Shown here: positions 14,818 through 59,703 of the stretch, in pieces
Layout of the letters: each line of letters opens with the position of its first letter
How positions within the stretch are numbered: the first letter of the stretch is position 1
Assembly (NCBI GenBank): GCA_003116975.1
Contig: BGKB01000079.1
Location: forward strand, 248,001-312,000
Length of the DNA stretch: 64,000 nt
Direction: 5' to 3'
DNA from: Aurantiochytrium sp. KH105
Lineage: Eukaryota > Sar > Bigyra > Thraustochytrida > Thraustochytriidae
Made by a program: the position numbers and the translations under genes
Notes under the pieces: model-generated
What the model was told of the DNA's origin: nothing
The model's database searches: none
Seen by the model: the letters and a program-made list of their open reading frames with translations, nothing else

Positions 14818-15216
14818 GGCAGAGGAATGAGCGGTTTTGAAAATTGCTGTCAGAGCGAAATAGTTTCAGATGACCATAAAAGGAAAACGAGCCAGACACG
14901 GTGGAATGTTCTTGCTTCCAATTGAGGGCGACGGGCAAGCGATATTTACAGAGGCAATGACAGAAGTACAAGGATGCGCTTGAAGATCAGCTACTAGACA
15001 GATAGATGCAGTGACAGCGCACAGTGGTGTGCGTGCAGAACAAGCAATGGGCAAAATGTGTGATAGAAGAGCACAGAGGTGTGCGTGCAGAACAAGCGAG
15101 GGCAAGAAAAAAGCGATACAAGTACAGTGGTGTGCGTGTGGAACAAGCAATGGGTAAGAAGTAGTGATACGAGTACAGTGGTGTGCGTATAATGTTAGCG
15201 CTGTCGACATTTTAGT
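14818..15216. other. Convergent 3' spacer
   Basis: Spacer between the convergent Myb-repeat and PH-domain genes. Its second half is a minisatellite (listed separately). Nothing coding. Confidence 0.6.
15021..15190. repeat. Minisatellite, about 51 bp unit, 3.3 copies
   Basis: The core ACAG(T/A)GGTGTGCGTG recurs at 15021, 15073, 15124 and 15175 (spacing 52, 51, 51), each followed by AACAAGC and a G/A-rich stretch. The last copy is partial and stops 27 bp before the PH-domain gene's stop codon, so it may lie in 3' UTRs of both genes. Confidence 0.85.
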
Positions 15217-49768: not shown

Positions 49769-52700
49769 TTACTGCTTGGTGTCCCGGAGCTTGCCGGGCT
49801 CCTTCATGAGCATGATGCGCATCTCGGTCATGTCCTCGATGGCATAGCGCACACCCTCACGGCCAAGGCCGGAGTCCTTCACGCCACCATACGGCTGCGA
49901 GTCGATGCGGTACGACGGCACATTGTTGATGACGACGCCGCCGCAGTGCATGTTCTCAAAGGCGTAGTGGGCCTTGGAGAGGTTGTTGGTGAAGACACCT
50001 GCCTGAAGACCGTAGCGGGAGTTGTTGACCTCGTCGACGATCGAGGCAAAGTCCGAGTACGGCTCGAGGCAGACGGCGGGGCCAAAGAGCTCCTCGTTGT
50101 AAATGGTACAATCGTGCGAAACGTTTTCGAGCACGGTGGCCTCCACGAAGTTCGTGCCCTGCTTGTTTCCACCCGTGAGCAGGTTGGCGCCCTTGTCGGT
50201 AGCCTCCTTGATCCACTCTGTGATGCGATCAGCATCCTTCTCGCTGATGACGGGACCGAGGAAGGTGTCCTCCTCCTTGGGGTCGCCCATTTTGAGACTC
50301 TTTACCTTTTCGACAAAGGCGTCCTTGAAGCGGGAGTAAATGGACTCGTGCACAAAGAGTCGCTGCACAGAAATGCAGCTTTGTCCACTTTGATAGAACG
50401 CACCCGTGGTGATGGACTGAACGACTGTGTCGAGCCCCTCATCGAGATCATCCACAACGCAGGCAGCGTTACCGCCAAGCTCGAGCACGACGTGCTTCTT
50501 GCTCGCTTTCGCTTTGAGTTCCCAGCCGACGGAGGCGGAACCGGTAAAGGAAAGAAGCTTGAAGCGGTCATCGGTCGTGAGAGCATCGCCGGACTCACGC
50601 GTGCAAGGCAGCACGGAAAAACCTTCCTTGGGCATGTTAGGGTCGTTGGCGAGAATCTCGCCCACGAGCAAGGAACCAAGCGGAGTGCGGCTTGCGGGCT
50701 TGACGACAAAGGGGCAGCCGGCGGCAATCGCCGGTGCCACCTTGCTGGCCAAAAGGTTGAGCGGGAAGTTGAAAGGGGAGATCATGCTGACCGGACCGCG
50801 CGGGAAGCGCTTGACGATGCCCTGATACCCGTGGGCACGCTTGGCAATGTCCATGTCGCCGGCCTCGCCATACATGCGAACTGTTTCTTCGGCAGCGATT
50901 TCAAAGGTCTGCACAAGGCGTTCGACCTCGCCGCGAGCGTCACTGATCGCCTTACCATTTTCAATGGTGGTCATCATGGCAAGCTCTTCGCTGCGGCGGC
51001 GCGCTTCCCGCGCAACGTTCATGAGGATCTCCTTGCGCACGTAGTGCGGAAGGGCTGCCATCTTGCGGGCTCCCGTGGTGGAGACCTCGTGGATGGCAGT
51101 CTCCATGTCGGACTTGGTTGCGACAGCCACCTTGCAAAAGACTTCGTTGGTGTGCTTGTCCATCACCTCGAGGTCCTCATTGGCGTACACGGGACGTCCC
51201 ACGAGGTAAAAGGGGACGCTGTCGCCCTTGTTGATGCTCCACTTTTCGCTCTCCTTGCTGTCGCTCTGCGATGTGGACTTGTTCTCGCTCTTTTCCGATG
51301 TCGAAGCAGACTTTGAATCCGACTCCGAGGAGGACTTGGCGGCCGAAGAGCTGGAAGCTGATTTCTCTTGCTGGGACTCTTCGCAGCCCTTTGTCTCCGA
51401 TGTAGAGGAGCGCTCCGAGTTGGAGCGACGCACCTTGTCAAGACGCTTGGTGCATTCCTCGGAAGCCTCCTTGGAGGCCTCCTCAGCTTCTTCCTTGGAC
51501 GAGGGGGGCAGAGAGTCTCCGAGGAGAATGTCTTCGCCAAATTCGTCGACGATGCGACGCAAAATCTCCGAAGCCTCAGATGGTACCTTTTCGAGCATGT
51601 CCGAGACCCAGCGGTAGGTGACGGGGACCTCGACGACGTGGACGCCCTTGGTTCCGATGCAGTGGCGCAGAACGTCGGCAAAGTCCTCGGTCTTGGACAC
51701 GCGATGGCCTTGGGCGCCAAAGGCCTCGGCGTGTTTGACAAAGTCGGGGTTCCGCAGGTCCAAATTGTACTCGTCAAAGTTCATGCCCTCTTGCTTCCAC
51801 TTGATCATACCGAGAGCGTTGTCATTGAGAACGAGCACGGTGATGTTGAAGCCGTACTGGACGGCGGTGGCGAGCTCCTCGCTGTTCATGAGGTAGCCGC
51901 CGTCGCCGCAAATGGCGACGACGGGCTGGTCCGGGCTAACCAGATTGGTGCCGATGGCGTTTGGCAGACCGGCGCCCATGGTGGCCAGGGCATTGTCGAG
52001 AAGCACGGTGAGCGGCTCGACAGCCTTGTAGTAGCGCGCGACCATGACCTTGTACAGGCCATTATCGAGGCTAAGAATGGCGTCGTCAGGAAGCACCTTG
52101 CGCATGTCAGTGATGACGCGGGCGACGTTCATGGGGAACTGATCATCGTCGGTGCCACGCTGCATGCACTCATCGGTGTACTCTTTGATGCGGCGAAAGG
52201 GAGCAGCATCAAAGACCTTGTTGTCGGCGCGCAGCTTTTCTTTGATTTGCCAGACTGCGTTGGCGCAGTCGCCCACAATCTCGACCTGCGGAAAATACGT
52301 CGAGTCGACGTGCGCAGGATCAAAGCTGATGTGAATGACCTTTCGAGACGAGGCGCCCGAAGACATGATGAAGGGAGGCTTCTCCGTGGTGTCGTGGCCG
52401 ACCATGATGATGACGTCGCTAATGTCGAGAGCGGCGTGGATGTAGTCTTTGGAGCTGATGGCGGCGCATCCGAGAAAGAACTCGCTCCGCTCGTCGACGA
52501 CACCCTTGCCCATTTGAGTGGAGACCACATGAATCTTGAGCTCATCGACGAACTCGCGAATGGCCCGACGTGCGCGGTGGCGGTTGGCAGCTGCGCCGAC
52601 GATCATGATGGGTCTCTTTGCATTGCGGAGGATGTCGACCGCGCCGTGCGTGCCCTTTTCGTCGGTGACGGGCCGGCGAACAGGCGTGGGCTCAAAGAGA

Positions 52701-53230
52701 TTGAACTCAGTTTGCATGGAGGCAATGTCCTCGGGCAGCTCGAGGAGCGTCGGGCCAGGCTTCTCGGTGGTTGCCTCGCGGAAGGCGCGACGGACCATGG
52801 ACGGCACGAGGTTGCCGTCGGTGATGGTCTTGGCATACTTTGTCAGGGGTTGGTACATGGAGACAATATCAACAATTTGGAACTCGGCCTGTTTGGTGCT
52901 ACGGATGCCCTTTTGACCCGTGAGGAAGACACAGGGCATGCCGCCAAGATGCGCAAATGCCGCCGCCGTGGTAAAGTTTGTCGCTCCGGGTCCGAGCGTG
53001 GAGAGAGCGACGGCCTTGACTTGGCCCGTAAGTCTGCCCACGGTGGCGCAGATGAAGCCTGCGGCCTGTTCATGGCGCGTGAGGATCACCTTGATCTTGC
53101 TCTTGCGCAGCGATTCGAGCACGTCCAGGTTTTCCTCTCCCGGGATGCCCACCACGTACTCGACGCCCTCATTCTCGAGCGCCTTGACCAGCAGGTCGCT
53201 GACCTTGATCTTCGACTTGTCGTCGCCCAT
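49769..53230 (-). CDS. Fusion: thiamine-diphosphate acetolactate-synthase-like enzyme + aldehyde dehydrogenase
   Basis: One 1153-codon frame holds two complete enzymes. Residues 1-565 are a ThDP enzyme of the IlvB/AlsS type: GIPGEENLD, catalytic Glu54 in TRHEQAAGF, STLGPGATN, FQIVDIVSMYQPLTKY, and the cofactor motif GDGGYLMN (from 442) with N471. It lacks the RFDDR-type FAD signature, so it looks like the FAD-free or catabolic group. Residues 575-665 are a Ser/Glu/Lys linker. Residues 670-1153 are an NAD(P)-dependent aldehyde dehydrogenase with N821 (SPFNFPLN), K844, E917 (LELGG) and catalytic C952 (GQSCISVQR). No targeting peptide or PTS1 is seen. Pyruvate or another 2-oxo acid could feed the first half and an aldehyde product the second; this coupling is inference. 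Confidence 0.93.
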   Translation of the reverse strand: MGDDKSKIKVSDLLVKALENEGVEYVVGIPGEENLDVLESLRKSKIKVILTRHEQAAGFICATVGRLTGQVKAVALSTLGPGATNFTTAAAFAHLGGMPCVFLTGQKGIRSTKQAEFQIVDIVSMYQPLTKYAKTITDGNLVPSMVRRAFREATTEKPGPTLLELPEDIASMQTEFNLFEPTPVRRPVTDEKGTHGAVDILRNAKRPIMIVGAAANRHRARRAIREFVDELKIHVVSTQMGKGVVDERSEFFLGCAAISSKDYIHAALDISDVIIMVGHDTTEKPPFIMSSGASSRKVIHISFDPAHVDSTYFPQVEIVGDCANAVWQIKEKLRADNKVFDAAPFRRIKEYTDECMQRGTDDDQFPMNVARVITDMRKVLPDDAILSLDNGLYKVMVARYYKAVEPLTVLLDNALATMGAGLPNAIGTNLVSPDQPVVAICGDGGYLMNSEELATAVQYGFNITVLVLNDNALGMIKWKQEGMNFDEYNLDLRNPDFVKHAEAFGAQGHRVSKTEDFADVLRHCIGTKGVHVVEVPVTYRWVSDMLEKVPSEASEILRRIVDEFGEDILLGDSLPPSSKEEAEEASKEASEECTKRLDKVRRSNSERSSTSETKGCEESQQEKSASSSSAAKSSSESDSKSASTSEKSENKSTSQSDSKESEKWSINKGDSVPFYLVGRPVYANEDLEVMDKHTNEVFCKVAVATKSDMETAIHEVSTTGARKMAALPHYVRKEILMNVAREARRRSEELAMMTTIENGKAISDARGEVERLVQTFEIAAEETVRMYGEAGDMDIAKRAHGYQGIVKRFPRGPVSMISPFNFPLNLLASKVAPAIAAGCPFVVKPASRTPLGSLLVGEILANDPNMPKEGFSVLPCTRESGDALTTDDRFKLLSFTGSASVGWELKAKASKKHVVLELGGNAACVVDDLDEGLDTVVQSITTGAFYQSGQSCISVQRLFVHESIYSRFKDAFVEKVKSLKMGDPKEEDTFLGPVISEKDADRITEWIKEATDKGANLLTGGNKQGTNFVEATVLENVSHDCTIYNEELFGPAVCLEPYSDFASIVDEVNNSRYGLQAGVFTNNLSKAHYAFENMHCGGVVINNVPSYRIDSQPYGGVKDSGLGREGVRYAIEDMTEMRIMLMKEPGKLRDTKQ

Positions 53231-54527
53231 CCTTGCCTGCTCTGCAAGCTTCGTCTATCCCCGTCGTCTTTTCCGCCTCCAATTCGGGTTTGCTGCCCGA
53301 GACGCCGAGCCAAGCCAAGCCAAGCCAAGCCGAAAGCCTAGCCCAGCTCACTCAAGTTCTGATGAGGTCACAGTGACTCACAGTCAGGACTGTCCGTGTG
53401 CGCGGAGAAAATTTCGTTCGCTCTGTCGATCACCAAAGTCCTCCAGCCAGGGTCTGCGCGCCACCTGGCTGCTCCGCTGAGTCTTCCTCCTCCTGTCACC
53501 CGCTCCCGAGCAGCGCCAGCAGCAGCTGCAGCTACCATGGCTACTGCGCCGCCACCACCTCCCGAAGCTCGAGGCAAAGCCACGCCGCGGCGTCGACCGC
53601 GCACGAGCAGCCACGAGCAACGCCGCGCAGCTCTGGAAACCTTCGCAGCAGCCAGCCAGCTCTCGTGACTCTCTCCGCCGACCCAGCGGGGCTGCGCCTC
53701 ACCGAGGCGCGCCTCGGCTGCGTCCCCTCTGCGCTCTCAGCCGCGGGGCTGCGCGGTGTGTGCCATGGCGTACACTAGCTTATACCGCGCCCACAAAGGG
53801 CCGGCTTGTGATGTATACTAGGCCTAGCCGCACAGGAGATGATGTAAGGGACGAGGCCCACTCTACTCTACGGGCTGCGGCTGGGACGCAGGAGAGCCTC
53901 GCGGGGCGGCGGGATCTGCACGGAGCAACTCGAGGCGATCGACAGATGTAGATTGATTGGTGCCTCGCCTTCTTGGTGTGCCTCGCCGACGCCGGAGCCG
54001 TGACGCGACGAAGATGAATCTGCAGGACGCAAGCCGAGCAAGGTGCGAAGGCCGTCGACGACCCGGCGTCGCCAGTGCAGCCGAAACGCGATAGTCTCAC
54101 CGCGTCCCAACCGGCAAGGATGAGCGAGGCGAGGAGGACCGTGACATCGACTCGGGCGCGAGGAGTCTCTCGCTACCCGTCGCAGTCGGTTCCGATGCTC
54201 GCTCGATCCGAGCTGGGGCCGAACGTGGGACGCAAGCGTGCGTGCACTGCGATGAAATGCAGTAATCGTGGCATGGTCAAGTCGCGTCGCCGCCGTCGAT
54301 TGTGACAGCCGACAAGCTTGCCGACAAGACAAAAGCAGCGTGCATTCTTTGATCTGTGATGGCTGCTTGCGCCACCGACGACATGAAAGTAATTCGCAGC
54401 CGTGCGCAAGCTGGACTTGACGGCCAGAGGCGACAGGAGAAATGAGAGCGAGAACAACAACGACATCAAAGTGCAAAATGAATGGACATGTATGTGGATG
54501 GGTGGGGAGAATTATGATAGATATAAC
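53231..54527. other. Intergenic, 1.3 kb
   Basis: Promoter of the fusion gene and 3' flank of the beta-oxidation gene. An (AAGCC)n repeat at 53307-53331 lies 77 bp upstream of the fusion start. An AGGCCTAG palindrome is at 53820. Open frames are Arg/Ser-rich and not supported. Confidence 0.5.
53307..53331. repeat. (AAGCC)n pentanucleotide repeat
   Basis: Five copies in the presumed leader or core promoter of the fusion gene. Confidence 0.88.
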
Positions 54528-56663
54528 TTAGAGCTTGGCGTTGACCTTTTTGGAGTTCTTGGCCCAGTACGCGGCAAGAGACTGGTTGGCAGCAACGCAG
54601 TCCTTGAGCAGGTTGGAGGGACGAAGGTGCTCCTTGGGGTTCTTCTTGCTGAATTCCTCGAGGGCCTGGAGGATCTTGGGAAGACCGTAGGCATCAGCCC
54701 AGTGCATGGGGCCGCCGCGGTAGCGCGGCCAGTTGTAGCCATGCACGAGAGCAACATCAATATCCTGAGGACGAATGGCAAAGCCCTCTTCGAGGATCTT
54801 AAAGCCCTCATTGACAATGGGCAAAAAGAGACGCTGCAAAATCTCCTCCTTGTCGACCTTGCGCGCAGTGATTCCCTTGACCTTGCGAACGGCCTCGATC
54901 TTGTCGAGCACAGACTGGTTCACAGTGCGCTTGCGGTTCTCGTCGTAATCGTAGTAGCCGGCGCCGTTCTTCTGGCCGAGGCGGCCGTTGACAGCGAGCC
55001 AATCGTCAACCGACGTCTCGGTGTTGACCTCGCCGCGCTTCTTGCGAGCCTCAAAACCGACATCACCGGTAAGGTCACGCAGCTGAAAGGGCCCAAGAGG
55101 CATGCCATACTCGACAGCGACGCCATCGATCTCGGTAAGCGGAGCACCCTCCATGAGAAGGCTGCGGGCCTCTGCAGAATAGTTAGCCATCATGCGGTTC
55201 GCAATAAAGCCGTGGCAGTTGCCCGCAAGGACGCACCACTTGCCGATGCGCGAGCCGACATCCATGGCGGTCGCGATGGTGGCGTCGCTGGTCTTGGCGC
55301 CGCGCACATTCTCGAGAAGAGGCATGACGTTGGCGGGGGAGAAGAAGTGCATGCCAATGACGTTCTCCGGGCGCTTGGTGGCGCTGGCAATCTCGTCGAT
55401 GCTGAGAAAAGAGGTGTTGGAAGCAAGAACGGCGTCCGGCTTGCAGTGCTTGTCGAGAAGGGCAAAAATCTCCTTCTTGACCTCCATGACCTCAAAGACG
55501 GCCTCAATGACAACGTCCGCGTCCGCAATGTCCTCGTACGAGGTGGTGGAGCTGAAGAGTGAGAGAATCTGGTCGACGCGAGCCTGCGTCTTGGAGCCGC
55601 GCTTGACGCTACGGGCGTAGTTGGCCTTGATGACGCTCATTCCCTTGTCGATGAACTTCTGCTCGCGATCCAGAAGCGTGACGGCGATGCCAGCTTCGGC
55701 GAGCGACATGGCGATACCGCCGGCCATGAGGCCCGAGCCGATGAGAGCGGCCTTCTTGACCTTGTTGGGCTTGGCCTTGAGGCCCGGGATCTTGGCGGCG
55801 CCACGCTCCGAAAAGAAGACGTGCTGGAGGGCGTTCGCCTCGGGGCTGCCAATGAGGGTGGCAAAAAGCTTGCGCTCGGTCTCGCAGCCGTCCTTGAAGG
55901 ATGACTTGGTGGCGGCCTCGACGCAGTCGATGATGCGCTGCGGTGCGGTCTGGCCCTTGCGCTTGGCGGCGTACTGCTTGCGCATCTTGTTGAAAAAGGC
56001 GGCATCGACCTTCTTGCCCGGGACCTGCTTGACCTCGCTGATCTTGCGACCCGAGTTGCTCGGGTTAGAGCTCGCCTTTTCGAGGGCAAAGGCGACAGCG
56101 TCCTCGACAAGGCTTTCGGCGGGGACCACCTTGTCGGCGACGCCCCACTCGGCAGCCTTCTTGGACGGCACATGGGCGCCAGAGCACATAAAGTCGAGAG
56201 CGGCCTCGGCACCGATCAGGCGCGGCAGGCGCTGGGTGCCCTGACCGCCAGGGAGGAGGCCGATGTTTACCTCGGGAAGGCCGATCATTGCGTTGGAGGC
56301 CATGACGCGGTAATGGCATCCGAGGGCGAGCTCGAGGCCGCCGCCCAGAGTGAAGCCTTGAATGGCCGCCACAACGGGGACCTTGAGGTCCTCAAAGTAC
56401 TCCATGAAACCCTTGCGCGGGTACCGATCATGCTTCTTGTTCAGGTCCACGATATCGGCACCGGCGCACAGAGCACGGGACCCAGCGCCGCGCACGACGA
56501 CGGCCTTGATGCTCTTGTCGGCGTCGATCTTGTCGGCGGCATCCTCAATGCCCAGCTGGACGGCGTTGCTCAGCGTGTTCAGCGGGAAGTGGTCCAGCGT
56601 CACAATCGCGCAGCCGTCCGGCCGTACCTCGAGGTCCACGCGGTTCGTGCCGGGTGCGCTCAT
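54528..56663 (-). CDS. EHHADH: Peroxisomal L-bifunctional enzyme: enoyl-CoA hydratase / 3-hydroxyacyl-CoA dehydrogenase
   Basis: A 711-residue enzyme doing steps two and three of peroxisomal beta-oxidation: hydration of trans-2-enoyl-CoA and NAD-dependent oxidation of the L-3-hydroxyacyl-CoA. The hydratase half (1-190) shows CAGADIVDL, GGGLELALGCHYR with Glu111 and GLPEVNIGLLPGGQGTQRLPR-type sequence with Glu131. The dehydrogenase half begins near 300 with the dinucleotide motif KAALIGSGLMAGGIAMSLAEAG and has NTSFLSIDEIA and GMHFFSPANVMPLLE with its catalytic His. Two C-terminal dimerisation domains follow. The chain ends AKL, a canonical type 1 peroxisomal targeting signal read by PEX5. The ATG at 56663 (MSAPGTNRVD) is used because the upstream frame begins at GTG. 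Length equals animal EHHADH (about 720). Confidence 0.95.
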   Translation of the reverse strand: MSAPGTNRVDLEVRPDGCAIVTLDHFPLNTLSNAVQLGIEDAADKIDADKSIKAVVVRGAGSRALCAGADIVDLNKKHDRYPRKGFMEYFEDLKVPVVAAIQGFTLGGGLELALGCHYRVMASNAMIGLPEVNIGLLPGGQGTQRLPRLIGAEAALDFMCSGAHVPSKKAAEWGVADKVVPAESLVEDAVAFALEKASSNPSNSGRKISEVKQVPGKKVDAAFFNKMRKQYAAKRKGQTAPQRIIDCVEAATKSSFKDGCETERKLFATLIGSPEANALQHVFFSERGAAKIPGLKAKPNKVKKAALIGSGLMAGGIAMSLAEAGIAVTLLDREQKFIDKGMSVIKANYARSVKRGSKTQARVDQILSLFSSTTSYEDIADADVVIEAVFEVMEVKKEIFALLDKHCKPDAVLASNTSFLSIDEIASATKRPENVIGMHFFSPANVMPLLENVRGAKTSDATIATAMDVGSRIGKWCVLAGNCHGFIANRMMANYSAEARSLLMEGAPLTEIDGVAVEYGMPLGPFQLRDLTGDVGFEARKKRGEVNTETSVDDWLAVNGRLGQKNGAGYYDYDENRKRTVNQSVLDKIEAVRKVKGITARKVDKEEILQRLFLPIVNEGFKILEEGFAIRPQDIDVALVHGYNWPRYRGGPMHWADAYGLPKILQALEEFSKKNPKEHLRPSNLLKDCVAANQSLAAYWAKNSKKVNAKL

Positions 56664-57484
56664 GGTGTCTGTAGTACTACACGTATAGCCTCGCGACGGG
56701 AGCTCGTTCACTCACGCACGCGCGCTAGCGGCGTCGGCCGGGAGGCGGAGCGGACAAACAACTCTACGCTCGGCTCAGCTTGGCTTGGCTTGGCTTGGCT
56801 TGGCTTGGCTCAGCTTGACGTGGCTCGGCAGGTTGCGAGTTTGCTTGCTGCCGCTACGCGATCGGAGTCCGCGCTTCCAGTCTCTGTCAGACTTGTCAGG
56901 CCTATCTTGCCCCGCCCCTACGGGTCCTAGGCGGTACCTATGGCTCGCAGCGCCACGCAGGGACAGACGGTCGGACGAGGCCGCCCTGCGCCGTCTCGGT
57001 CCCCGTCGCCTTTCGCCCCGCCGTGCCGCGCGCGATTTAAGCGTATATTCTTGTAATTACTGCCCGATGTGGCCAATTTTGGAAAGAGGAGAGACTACAG
57101 ATACAAGACTTTTCATTCAAGGAAGAGAATGATACAGCGGAGGTTCAGGACGGAGCAAAACCTGGCTTTTCTTCTTTTCCTCTTTTTTCTCTTTTGCGCG
57201 CAAGGATAGAAAGGAGAAAGCTTCCGCCGGCCAGGTTGGTTTCTTTCCGGCCTCAGCGCCGCGACTCTGTCGTGCGCAGAAGGAGAAACAGGGCATGGCG
57301 GCTGGGGCGGCTGGCTGGCCGGTGGTGCGCGGAATCGAGGGCGAAGAGGCGAAGAGGACGGGATTAGGTTGTGAGGTGAGGTGATGTGAGGTCAGGCGGT
57401 ATGGGCTACGATGTCATGCCGATCACTGGCGCACACGGAAGGTGTGCGCGATTTCGAGGACACCTTACGGGGACATCAAAAAGA
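56664..57484. other. Intergenic: 5' flank of the beta-oxidation gene
   Basis: Contains a (CTTGG)n repeat, CG-rich DNA at 56930-57040, a CT/TC-rich stretch near 57170-57200, and an 8-bp hairpin at 57429-57449 (GCGCACAC, loop GGAAG, GTGTGCGC) just before the tandem array. No gene. Confidence 0.55.
56779..56810. repeat. (CTTGG)n pentanucleotide repeat
   Basis: Six copies about 116 bp upstream of the bifunctional-enzyme start codon. Confidence 0.9.
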
Positions 57485-58474
57485 GGACAAAAAAAGAGAA
57501 AGGTGCGAGTATCGAAATGCCGTCTGCGAGCGGGGAGACCGATGCGAACAGGTGTGGATTTCCTGTCCGCGAGTCGTAGCTCCCCTTGAATCAGTCAAAA
57601 TTCGGGCTTCTGTGAAATTACTCACTCACGCCGTGGCTCACATTGCACGAACCTCCTCGCCATGCTTATAAAGGCCTCTCTCTTCTGGAATGGTGCAAAA
57701 AGTGATCCACGATGGTTCCGCAGACTTTTGCGCGAGCAAAAAAAAAGAAAGATGCGAGTATCGAAATGCCGTCTGCGAGCGGGGCGACCGGTGCGGACAG
57801 GCACTACTATACGTATAATAGTAGGATGCCCTGTCCACGGGTCGTAGATCCCCTTTAACCAGTCAAAATTGGGACGTCTGAGGCAGAACTCACTGACGGC
57901 GTGGCTCACGTTGCACGAACCTCCTCGCCATGCTTATAAAGGGCTCTCTCTTCTGGCATGGTGCAAAAAGGGATCCTCGATGGTTCCGCAGGCTTTTGCG
58001 CGAGCAAAAAAAAAGAAAGATGCGAGTATCGAAATGTCGTCTGCGAGCGGGGCGACGCCGCGGACAGGTATGGATTTCCTGTCCGCGACTCGTAGCTCCC
58101 CTTGAATCAGTCAAAATTCGGGCTTCTGTGAAATTACTCACTGACGCCGTGGCTCACATTGCACGAACCTGCTCGCCATGCTTATAAAGGCATCTCTCTT
58201 CTGAGATGGTGCAAAAAGGGATCCTCGATGGTTCCGCAGGCTTTTATGCGAGCAAAAAGAAAGAAAGATGCGAGTATCGAAATGCCGTCTGCGAGCGGGG
58301 CGACGCCGCGGACAGGTATGGATTCCCGGTCCGCGACTCGTAGCTCCCCTTGAATCAGTCAAAATTCGGGCTTCTGTGAAATTACTCACTGACGCCGTGG
58401 CTCACATTGCACGAACCTCCTCGCCATGCTTATAAAGGCCTCTCTCTTCTGGCATGGTGCAAAAAGGGATCCCG
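57485..58474. repeat. Tandem array, four copies of a ~249 bp unit with TATA-like box and hairpin
   Basis: Anchored on GTATCGAAATG, copies start at 57509, 57758, 58026 and 58274 (periods 249, 268, 248). Each unit has, in order: the anchor and GTCTGCGAGCGGG; a hairpin with stem GCGGACAGG/CCTGTCCGC; CAGTCAAAATT; TGGCTCAC; GCTTATAAAGG, a good TATA box; an A-run preceded by GCGAGC. Identity between units is high, so the array is young or homogenised. The 19-bp excess of the second unit is exactly the replacement of the 9-nt hairpin loop by a 28-nt segment that folds itself. Short frames through the units are not conserved as protein. Function unknown: candidates are a small structured-RNA gene cluster, a promoter array or a plain satellite. 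Confidence 0.88.
57790..57837. other. Expanded hairpin in the second unit of the tandem array
   Basis: The outer stem GGACAGG/CCTGTCC is kept, while the loop contains a second stem CTACTAT/ATAGTAG around ACGTATA. Confidence 0.85.
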
Positions 58475-59703
58475 ATGCTTCCTCCGCCGCATTGTCGTTC
58501 TCCGCTCAAGGGCCAACCTCGCTTCATGGCGACTCACGCCAGGCTGCTCTGCTCAGCCGACGTCAAGTTGAACTCACAGTTAATCCTGGGAGGCTCTCCC
58601 CCATGCCCTATCAGCTTGCGCAATGACTTGTACTTCTAAAGACGCGGCCTCACTGTCAGTTCGACCCTGGCAGACTCGGACCGCCCTTTCCAGCTGCGAA
58701 CCGCAGCCTCGCCTTCGTAGACACCTTCGTCAACATTGCAAATGCGCGCGTCGCGTCTCCGACCAGCCCTGGGGAAAGTGTGCAAAACCAGCGCTGCAAG
58801 TGTACCAATCTCGGCACCCAGCACGGCACGCAGCCCCGCCGCCTGCAGCTGCCGGCCCGCGCCCGCCGCTGGTGCTGCCTCGCGCGCGGGCTCTCGCCGC
58901 CGTCGGAGGCGGCGCCGGCGCGGCTCTTCGCCGTCTCTCCGCTCGCGAGCTTGCTGGCGAGCTGCAGCTCGCTGCGCGAGCGAGGCGAGCCCCAGAGGCG
59001 CCGCCGTTAAAGATCTACGGGTGACCTGGGAGCTCAGGGTAGGACCCCCCTAGGCCCCAACCAGGCCCTCGGAGGCTTGTTTTCTGCGAGTGCACACTTG
59101 GCTTTTGTACTTCTTGCGGCGCGCGCACGGTTTTGTGTGTGTGTCTGATCTGCGGCAGCCATCCGTCCTCCCGTGCACGCGACGCTACAGCACAGCTCGC
59201 GCAGCTCGCGCAGCTCGCGCAGCTCGCGCAGCTGCAACTGGCGGAGCGCCGGCACGGCTGGCGACGCCCCGACGGACGCGGCCTGGCTCGCCTTGGCTTG
59301 CTTGATTCGAGCAACCGGAGGTCTCCGATCCGACCGCCTGTTCTTACCTCACGCGTAGCAAGTTGAATTTTTGCGCGTAAAGCCTTCATACCGCCGCCGC
59401 GAGGGGCGATCAGCCAGCGCGTGCAGGTTGGTTGGTCGCTCCGCGCGGCGACGAGTATACTATACGCAATCTACTTCCTCCTTGGTAGTAAGAATGAGAG
59501 GGTGGTAAATGGTGCTGGCAGTGCCGGCGTAAAAGCGGCTGCGCTGGACCGCCAGAGGATGTCTGACTGCGCGGTCCCAATCTATGCGGTGCTTGTGCGT
59601 GCCTCTACTACATGAACTCGTCTTCCGCCAAGAGAGATAAAGGTCTGCTCGCCGTCCATGCGGCGCAGACACCTAATTGCTCGCGTCCGCAAGCTTTGCG
59701 AAA
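58475..59703. other. Intergenic, 1.2 kb, promoter side of CSC1-like gene
   Basis: Very GC-rich at 58840-59000; a 9-bp tandem repeat (CAGCTCGCG) at 59193-59232; TATACTATA at about 59455. No gene supported. Confidence 0.5.
59193..59232. repeat. (CAGCTCGCG)n, 9-bp repeat
   Basis: More than four tandem copies; in-frame translation gives an artefactual Ala/Gln/Leu or Arg/Ser repeat. Confidence 0.88.

Follow-up and report, generated by a model that had tools for sequence, protein, structure and literature searches.

A predicted 2-oxoglutarate decarboxylase-succinic semialdehyde dehydrogenase encoded by a single open frame in the thraustochytrid Aurantiochytrium sp. KH105

We analysed a 64-kb stretch of DNA from Aurantiochytrium sp. 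KH105 (positions 248,001 to 312,000 of contig BGKB01000079.1), hereafter called the window, whose own numbering is used throughout. On its minus strand, at 49769-53230, lies a fused gene. Its one open frame, which starts with ATG, ends with TAA and counts 1153 codons, joins a thiamine diphosphate (ThDP)-dependent enzyme to an aldehyde dehydrogenase (ALDH). On the strength of the open frame and of domain and family matches, we consider it likely that the gene encodes, in one polypeptide, a bypass of the kind formed by cyanobacterial OgdA and SsaD, leading from 2-oxoglutarate through succinic semialdehyde to succinate, and we annotate it as a predicted 2-oxoglutarate decarboxylase-succinic semialdehyde dehydrogenase (SSADH). 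Using ThDP and a divalent metal, the N half would decarboxylate 2-oxoglutarate non-oxidatively to succinic semialdehyde and CO2; the C half would then oxidize this semialdehyde and so yield succinate, NADP+ being the most likely coenzyme. A flexible linker would hold both active sites on one chain, and the reactive aldehyde would be passed on locally. Like that of OgdA/SsaD, by which cyanobacteria complete their citric-acid cycle, the net reaction would circumvent 2-oxoglutarate dehydrogenase (OGDH) and succinyl-CoA ligase. We infer the substrate, the coenzyme, the hand-over of the aldehyde and the location of the fused enzyme from these comparisons.

Results

One open frame encodes both enzyme kinds

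The first-pass annotation of this DNA had described two full-length enzyme halves in one frame, and the domain scan bore this out. All Pfam matches were over cut-off, with TPP_enzyme_N, TPP_enzyme_M and TPP_enzyme_C at residues 9-125, 197-328 and 389-535, and Aldedh at residues 685-1138. The two enzyme kinds of the bypass, a ThDP enzyme and an ALDH, are thus both encoded in one open frame. The ThDP half spans residues 8-547 (51590-53209; this and all following positions within the gene are on the minus strand), the ALDH half residues 673-1147 (49790-51214), and the Ser/Glu/Lys-rich linker between them residues 560-668 approximately (51227-51553).

The linker, described earlier as about 90 residues long, is coding sequence, because its codon adaptation is high in the frame of the gene only (0.755, versus 0.478 and 0.598 for the two alternatives; reference, six other frames of the window). 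Residues 556-668 contain no Met, and the next one, Met690, lies inside the ALDH match. AlphaFold2 returned two folded parts in a model of moderate quality, with a mean predicted local distance difference test score (pLDDT) of 76.9 and a predicted template modelling score of 0.49. The pLDDT fell below 50 at residues 604-662, which are predicted to be disordered, and likewise in the shorter in-domain stretches 108-123, 180-185, 308-311 and 1106-1122. Nine codons ahead of the ATG lies an in-frame stop, so the exon carries no N-terminal extension, and a spliced exon may lie further upstream. The C-terminus reads -TKQ.

The ThDP half carries decarboxylase-like residues

In NCBIfam, the ThDP half scored 722.6 bits against PRK08322 (NF006187; cut-off 509) over residues 8-547, and fell under the cut-offs of both the AlsS model TIGR02418 (347 bits; cut-off 551) and the biosynthetic acetohydroxyacid synthase model TIGR00118 (354 bits; cut-off 538). 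The catalytic ThDP residues are in place, namely Glu54 (53069-53071), the ThDP-activating glutamate, and GDG at 442-444. Together with Asn821, Glu917 and Cys952 of the C half, these had been listed by the first-pass annotation, and all five are present; the metal ligand, given there as Asn471, is Asp470, at a column where acetohydroxyacid-synthase-like loci have Asn and the family of the ThDP half has Asp.

The bacterial reference sample comprised 80 loci kept from 572 relatives of the ThDP half. Lys394 (52049-52051) and Lys479 (51794-51796) correspond to Lys in all 80. In alignments, these two columns hold Ala and Gln in the AlsS structure 4rji, which we take to be the Bacillus subtilis enzyme, and Tyr and Gln in the ancestral AlsS 9zgl. 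The ThDP half also differs from the VGQHQMW and LGMVRQWQ-like motifs of the acetohydroxyacid-synthase-like loci that we fetched. The description of the ThDP half as a bacterial type distinct from plastid or mitochondrial acetohydroxyacid synthase is retained, and the label acetolactate-synthase-like is dropped on the grounds of family scores and active-site residues.

The closest functional comparison is with MaKGD, a characterised 2-oxoglutarate decarboxylase of Microcystis, for which the available text of PMC10418658 reports a strict preference for 2-oxoglutarate and names residues near ThDP and 2-oxoglutarate from docking on a predicted model. We mapped these residues by number rather than by alignment: a single offset, fixed at Asp435, placed 15 positions, and Glu50 was located through its motif. 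On this mapping, 11 of the 16 positions are identical in the ThDP half, including Glu50 (our Glu54), Lys386, Met410, Asp435, Asp462, Lys471 and Tyr531. By position, Lys394 corresponds to Lys386, a docked 2-oxoglutarate contact, and Lys479 to Lys471, a docked salt bridge to 2-oxoglutarate. Thus, mapped by residue number, the ThDP residues and both docked lysines expected of an OgdA/KGD enzyme are found in the ThDP half. The signature VGAHK ... YGL of those enzymes reads NGLYK ... LGM in the window.

The relatives include two sister types. We call type A the ten loci, from our phylum samples, with His-Lys at 393-394, and type B those of the window type, with NG[VIML] followed by YK (once FK). 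VGAHK was found in nine of the ten type-A loci, and seven of the ten (L134-L137, L200, L201 and L203) agree with MaKGD at every one of V382, A384, H385, K386, Y465, L467 and K471. L195 and L202 each deviate at one of these seven pocket positions, and L199 has His at the position of Lys471. The position of MaKGD Ala408 was Cys in all four type-A loci inspected. An ALDH21-like gene adjoins five type-A loci, all within the full-signature seven, and 17 different type-B genes (19 tree rows, two of them repeats). In one tree, the types split at 100/100, with the window in clade B, sister to A. In another, A and B together exclude other ThDP enzymes (Shimodaira-Hasegawa-like approximate likelihood ratio test, 99), and L196, a row of a third kind, takes a basal position in B next to the window. 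Within B, no sister of the ThDP half, whose branch is long, was resolved; its top identity is 56%, to a sequence from Planctomycetota. At least four enzyme kinds pass the cut-off of PRK08322: types A and B, a third type (13bb, L196) and, by a narrow margin, AlsS.

The ALDH half is related to ALDH21

The catalytic ALDH residues are in place: Asn821 (50768-50770, within SPFNFPLN at 818), Glu917 (50480-50482) and Cys952 (50375-50377), which we take to be the oxyanion asparagine, the general base and the nucleophile, respectively. Among solved structures, the best match was ALDH21 (5mz5, presumably from a moss; 573 bits), followed by 5j6b (presumably from Burkholderia), 5jry and 5kf0 at 541-554 bits. 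The C half scored only 315 bits against the SSADH model (cut-off 646), and a GabD row (L037) stands in another part of the ALDH tree.

Trees of the two halves, which the first-pass annotation had set as a test, gave a divided answer. The N half falls within bacterial enzymes, the window being the sole eukaryotic row, whereas the C half is sister to the eukaryotic moss ALDH21 in two trees (99/91 and 98/89). A grouping of the window with bacterial ALDH21-like rows to the exclusion of moss was disfavoured (approximately unbiased test, p 0.027) in a test that was named after the first tree had been seen and that involves long branches; we regard this as moderate evidence for the grouping of the window with moss ALDH21.

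Two candidate carboxylate-site residues, Arg771 (50918-50920) and Arg1108 (49907-49909, in a stretch of low model confidence), are conserved across the ALDH21-like clade, in which row L207 ends before the second, and across the sister clade of partner ALDHs. Counterparts also occur in five non-partner rows (L117, L118, L119, L131 and L132), and both are absent in GabD. We take them to match Arg121 and Arg457 of the moss enzyme PpALDH21, and assume a role at its substrate site. Ser847, at the coenzyme position, is likewise common to moss ALDH21. This serine and the relationship to ALDH21 suggest that NADP+ is a more likely coenzyme than NAD+, against the NADH production proposed in the first-pass annotation. 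In a review (PMC7823795, as far as its text was available), PpALDH21 is described as a tetrameric, cytosolic, NADP+-dependent SSADH.

Homologues of the two halves are neighbours in bacteria

Adjacent bacterial homologues of both halves, anticipated by the first-pass annotation, were found in several phyla. A PRK08322 gene and an ALDH21-like gene are neighbours, with the order and shared strand of the fusion, in Planctomycetota, Verrucomicrobiota, Myxococcota, Burkholderia and others; in Burkholderia stagnalis, for example, the type-B gene adjoins an ALDH21-like gene. The type-B pairs show about 50-57% identity to each window half. In contrast to the fused gene, the paired bacterial genes occupy separate frames, 9-398 bp apart from match to match, and frame maps drawn for the 80 loci show the two separately. 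The fusion probably arose by the joining of two such genes.

A same-strand ALDH lies no more than 600 bp downstream in 24 of the 80 loci, 11 being ALDH21-like (at least 48% identity) and 13 of other kinds. In the phylum samples, ALDH neighbours numbered 2/5 (L133-L137), 10/30 (the best 30 of 66 genomes with a match), 4/5 and 7/8; L162, L192 and L083 repeat genes of the 80-locus set. Nine Pseudomonas loci of the 80 have an ALDH of another kind downstream. We scanned four of these, and all four neighbours were the NADP-dependent SSADH equivalog PRK11241 (1003-1021 bits; cut-off 828). Thus, two ALDH lineages whose known or named substrate is succinic semialdehyde adjoin the same kind of ThDP gene, and this is our argument for the substrate. 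In the four loci (L037, L045, L048 and L080), the PRK08322-type gene stands directly upstream of the NADP-SSADH gene (gabD), and such Pseudomonas genes, annotated as acetolactate synthase, may in fact encode 2-oxoglutarate decarboxylases.

Bacteroidota have a third kind of ALDH adjacent, with 34-36% identity to the C half; in three that were scanned, no NCBIfam model was over cut-off. On a Palleronia plasmid (L102:5001-11234), a type-B gene lies near a three-gene set of the molybdenum-containing xanthine dehydrogenase family, another possible aldehyde oxidiser.

Absence of OGDH was considered as functional evidence for the bypass and rejected, since neither of two comparisons showed an association with the gene pair, a result that speaks against our assignment. 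OGDH E1 exceeded its cut-off in 7 of the 11 genomes with the pair and in 12 of the 17 others. It was missing in 5/10 type-A genomes, 6/13 type-B genomes with a partner and 7/11 type-B genomes without one, and also in 14 of 22 Planctomycetota that lack an over-cut-off PRK08322.

Surroundings of the fused gene

Frames with eukaryotic domains (Ku, ODAD1, Myb and a 10TM transporter domain) flank the fused gene on both sides, and the GC content of the window is 52-64% per 2-kb block. Together with long uninterrupted frames and the outer-dynein-arm gene, this GC content might fit a thraustochytrid-like protist. The upstream neighbour on the same strand (54528-56711, minus) encodes a bifunctional enoyl-CoA hydratase/3-hydroxyacyl-CoA dehydrogenase ending in -AKL, a peroxisomal-type tail. 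Opposite the fused gene run long open frames at 49946-51316 (plus, 456 residues) and 51368-53341 (plus, 657 residues), probably a by-product of high third-position GC. Tandem arrays occupy 57488-58482 (248-bp unit, 3.9 copies, 85% matches) and 15021-15188 (51-bp unit, 3.3 copies). Rfam and tRNA scans of the 64-kb window returned nothing, and no pattern matched when viral contigs were searched for the fused protein.

Discussion

Several observations weigh against the assignment as a 2-oxoglutarate decarboxylase-SSADH. PRK08322 is a lenient model, since the AlsS chain of 4rji scores 511 against its cut-off of 509; the residues therefore count for more than the family name. Among the residues, five of the 16 MaKGD positions that we mapped are changed in the ThDP half (V382 to N, A384 to L, H385 to Y, Y465 to L and L467 to M), and MaKGD Gln254 could not be placed on it. 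The window has Leu473 where the 80 loci have Tyr (78) or Phe (2). Moreover, 53 of the 80 loci, mostly from Pseudomonas, have no ALDH gene just downstream, and three more are cut short. The Synechococcus elongatus control genome, from a strain that we presume to lack the bypass, gave no PRK08322 match at E <= 1e-140. No cyanobacterial decarboxylase or SSADH sequence was among the 80 loci, and the comparison to cyanobacteria runs through residue numbers. We found no assay of a type-B enzyme, the type of the window. Finally, the contacts of MaKGD Lys386 and Lys471 come from docking, the mutants described in the available part of PMC10418658 being at Leu467, Tyr465, Asp435, Asp462, Met410 and Glu50. 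The same source reports that Y465A raises the K0.5 for ThDP 16-fold; as Leu473 replaces Tyr or Phe, the ThDP affinity of the fused enzyme could, by analogy, be lower.

The fused enzyme might act on a different 2-oxo acid, such as 2-oxoadipate or another carboxylated one, and then oxidise the resulting aldehyde by the same chemistry. The five changed pocket positions, the many loci with no ALDH just downstream and the type-B gene beside the molybdenum enzyme set would all fit such an enzyme. Nevertheless, the four Pseudomonas loci in which a GabD equivalog adjoins the type-B gene, the relationship of the C half to ALDH21 and the two lysines in common with MaKGD argue for 2-oxoglutarate, and we think a different substrate unlikely. 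The coupled conversion of a 2-oxo acid through an aldehyde to an acid, as envisaged in the first-pass annotation, is the best reading of the gene.

It is far less probable that the N half is a true acetolactate synthase (ALS) joined to an unrelated ALDH and serving acetoin or branched-chain metabolism, even though PRK08322 bears the database name 'acetolactate synthase large subunit', the ThDP half resembles AlsS structures overall and AlsS just reaches the PRK08322 cut-off. The ThDP half falls under the AlsS and ALS cut-offs, residues 394 and 479 are unlike those of AlsS and acetohydroxyacid synthases, and an ALDH is not known to catalyse a step of the acetoin or branched-chain acetolactate pathways. 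On these scores and residues we rejected the acetolactate/acetoin reading, and with it the acetoin-type metabolism suggested earlier. We judge it equally improbable that each half is produced as a protein of its own or that the fused frame is an accident of assembly or annotation. The frame 49769-53230 runs without a stop or frame change, the codons of the linker match local usage in that frame only, the first Met after the Met-free residues 556-668 is already within the ALDH match, and frames with eukaryotic domains stand on either side. We infer that a single mRNA spans 51200-51600.

The assignment as a one-polypeptide 2-oxoglutarate decarboxylase-SSADH invites comparison with known systems. 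The same two predicted activities are found in OgdA/SsaD of Synechococcus 7002 (A2770-A2771), whose genes are described as an operon in the text available from PMC5160925; the pathway is thus not the new module that the first-pass annotation had supposed. According to the accessible part of PMC4224347, the cyanobacterial 2-oxoglutarate decarboxylase gene had been described as an acetolactate synthase gene. OgdA/SsaD, however, consists of two cyanobacterial genes, whereas the fused gene gives one polypeptide, has a ThDP half of type B rather than type A, and resides in a eukaryote. ALDH21 (5mz5), the closest solved relative and sister in the tree, shares the catalytic Glu and Cys, the two arginines and the coenzyme-position serine, but its chain of 515 residues stands alone, while the C half is joined to a decarboxylase domain. 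GabD/ALDH5 enzymes catalyse the reaction predicted here, yet the C half lies under the SSADH model cut-off and GabD elsewhere in the tree.

Among eukaryotes, Euglena gracilis has a 2-oxoglutarate decarboxylase and an SSADH that amount to the same net bypass; these enzymes are reported as mitochondrial (PMC6630311, in the part available), and the decarboxylase is described as differing in phylogeny from its cyanobacterial counterpart (PMC4224347, likewise). The latter source also suggests that a cyanobacterium-derived 2-oxoglutarate decarboxylase, labelled acetolactate synthase, occurs in land-plant chloroplasts, so the proposal of a similar gene in a eukaryote has a precedent. We found no report of a fused 2-oxoglutarate decarboxylase-SSADH in the literature surveyed by titles and abstract openings. 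What is new here is the fused form and the type-B decarboxylase; the pathway itself is known from cyanobacteria.

Taken together, these comparisons allow a further, tentative proposal, which we hold to be possible but rather doubtful: a eukaryote with flagellar genes may possess a one-polypeptide, CoA-free, extramitochondrial and NADPH-yielding route from 2-oxoglutarate to succinate in which the aldehyde never leaves the polypeptide between the two steps, and the standalone ALDH21 of mosses and green algae may have descended from, or been acquired together with, such a decarboxylase-SSADH unit. If the assignment is true, a eukaryote would bypass part of the citric-acid cycle with an ALS-like decarboxylase contained in a single enzyme, which would also be a naturally occurring fusion able to deal with a reactive semialdehyde. 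The assignment would, moreover, hint at the real function of many bacterial 'acetolactate synthase' (PRK08322) genes, and would offer a testable origin for plant ALDH21.

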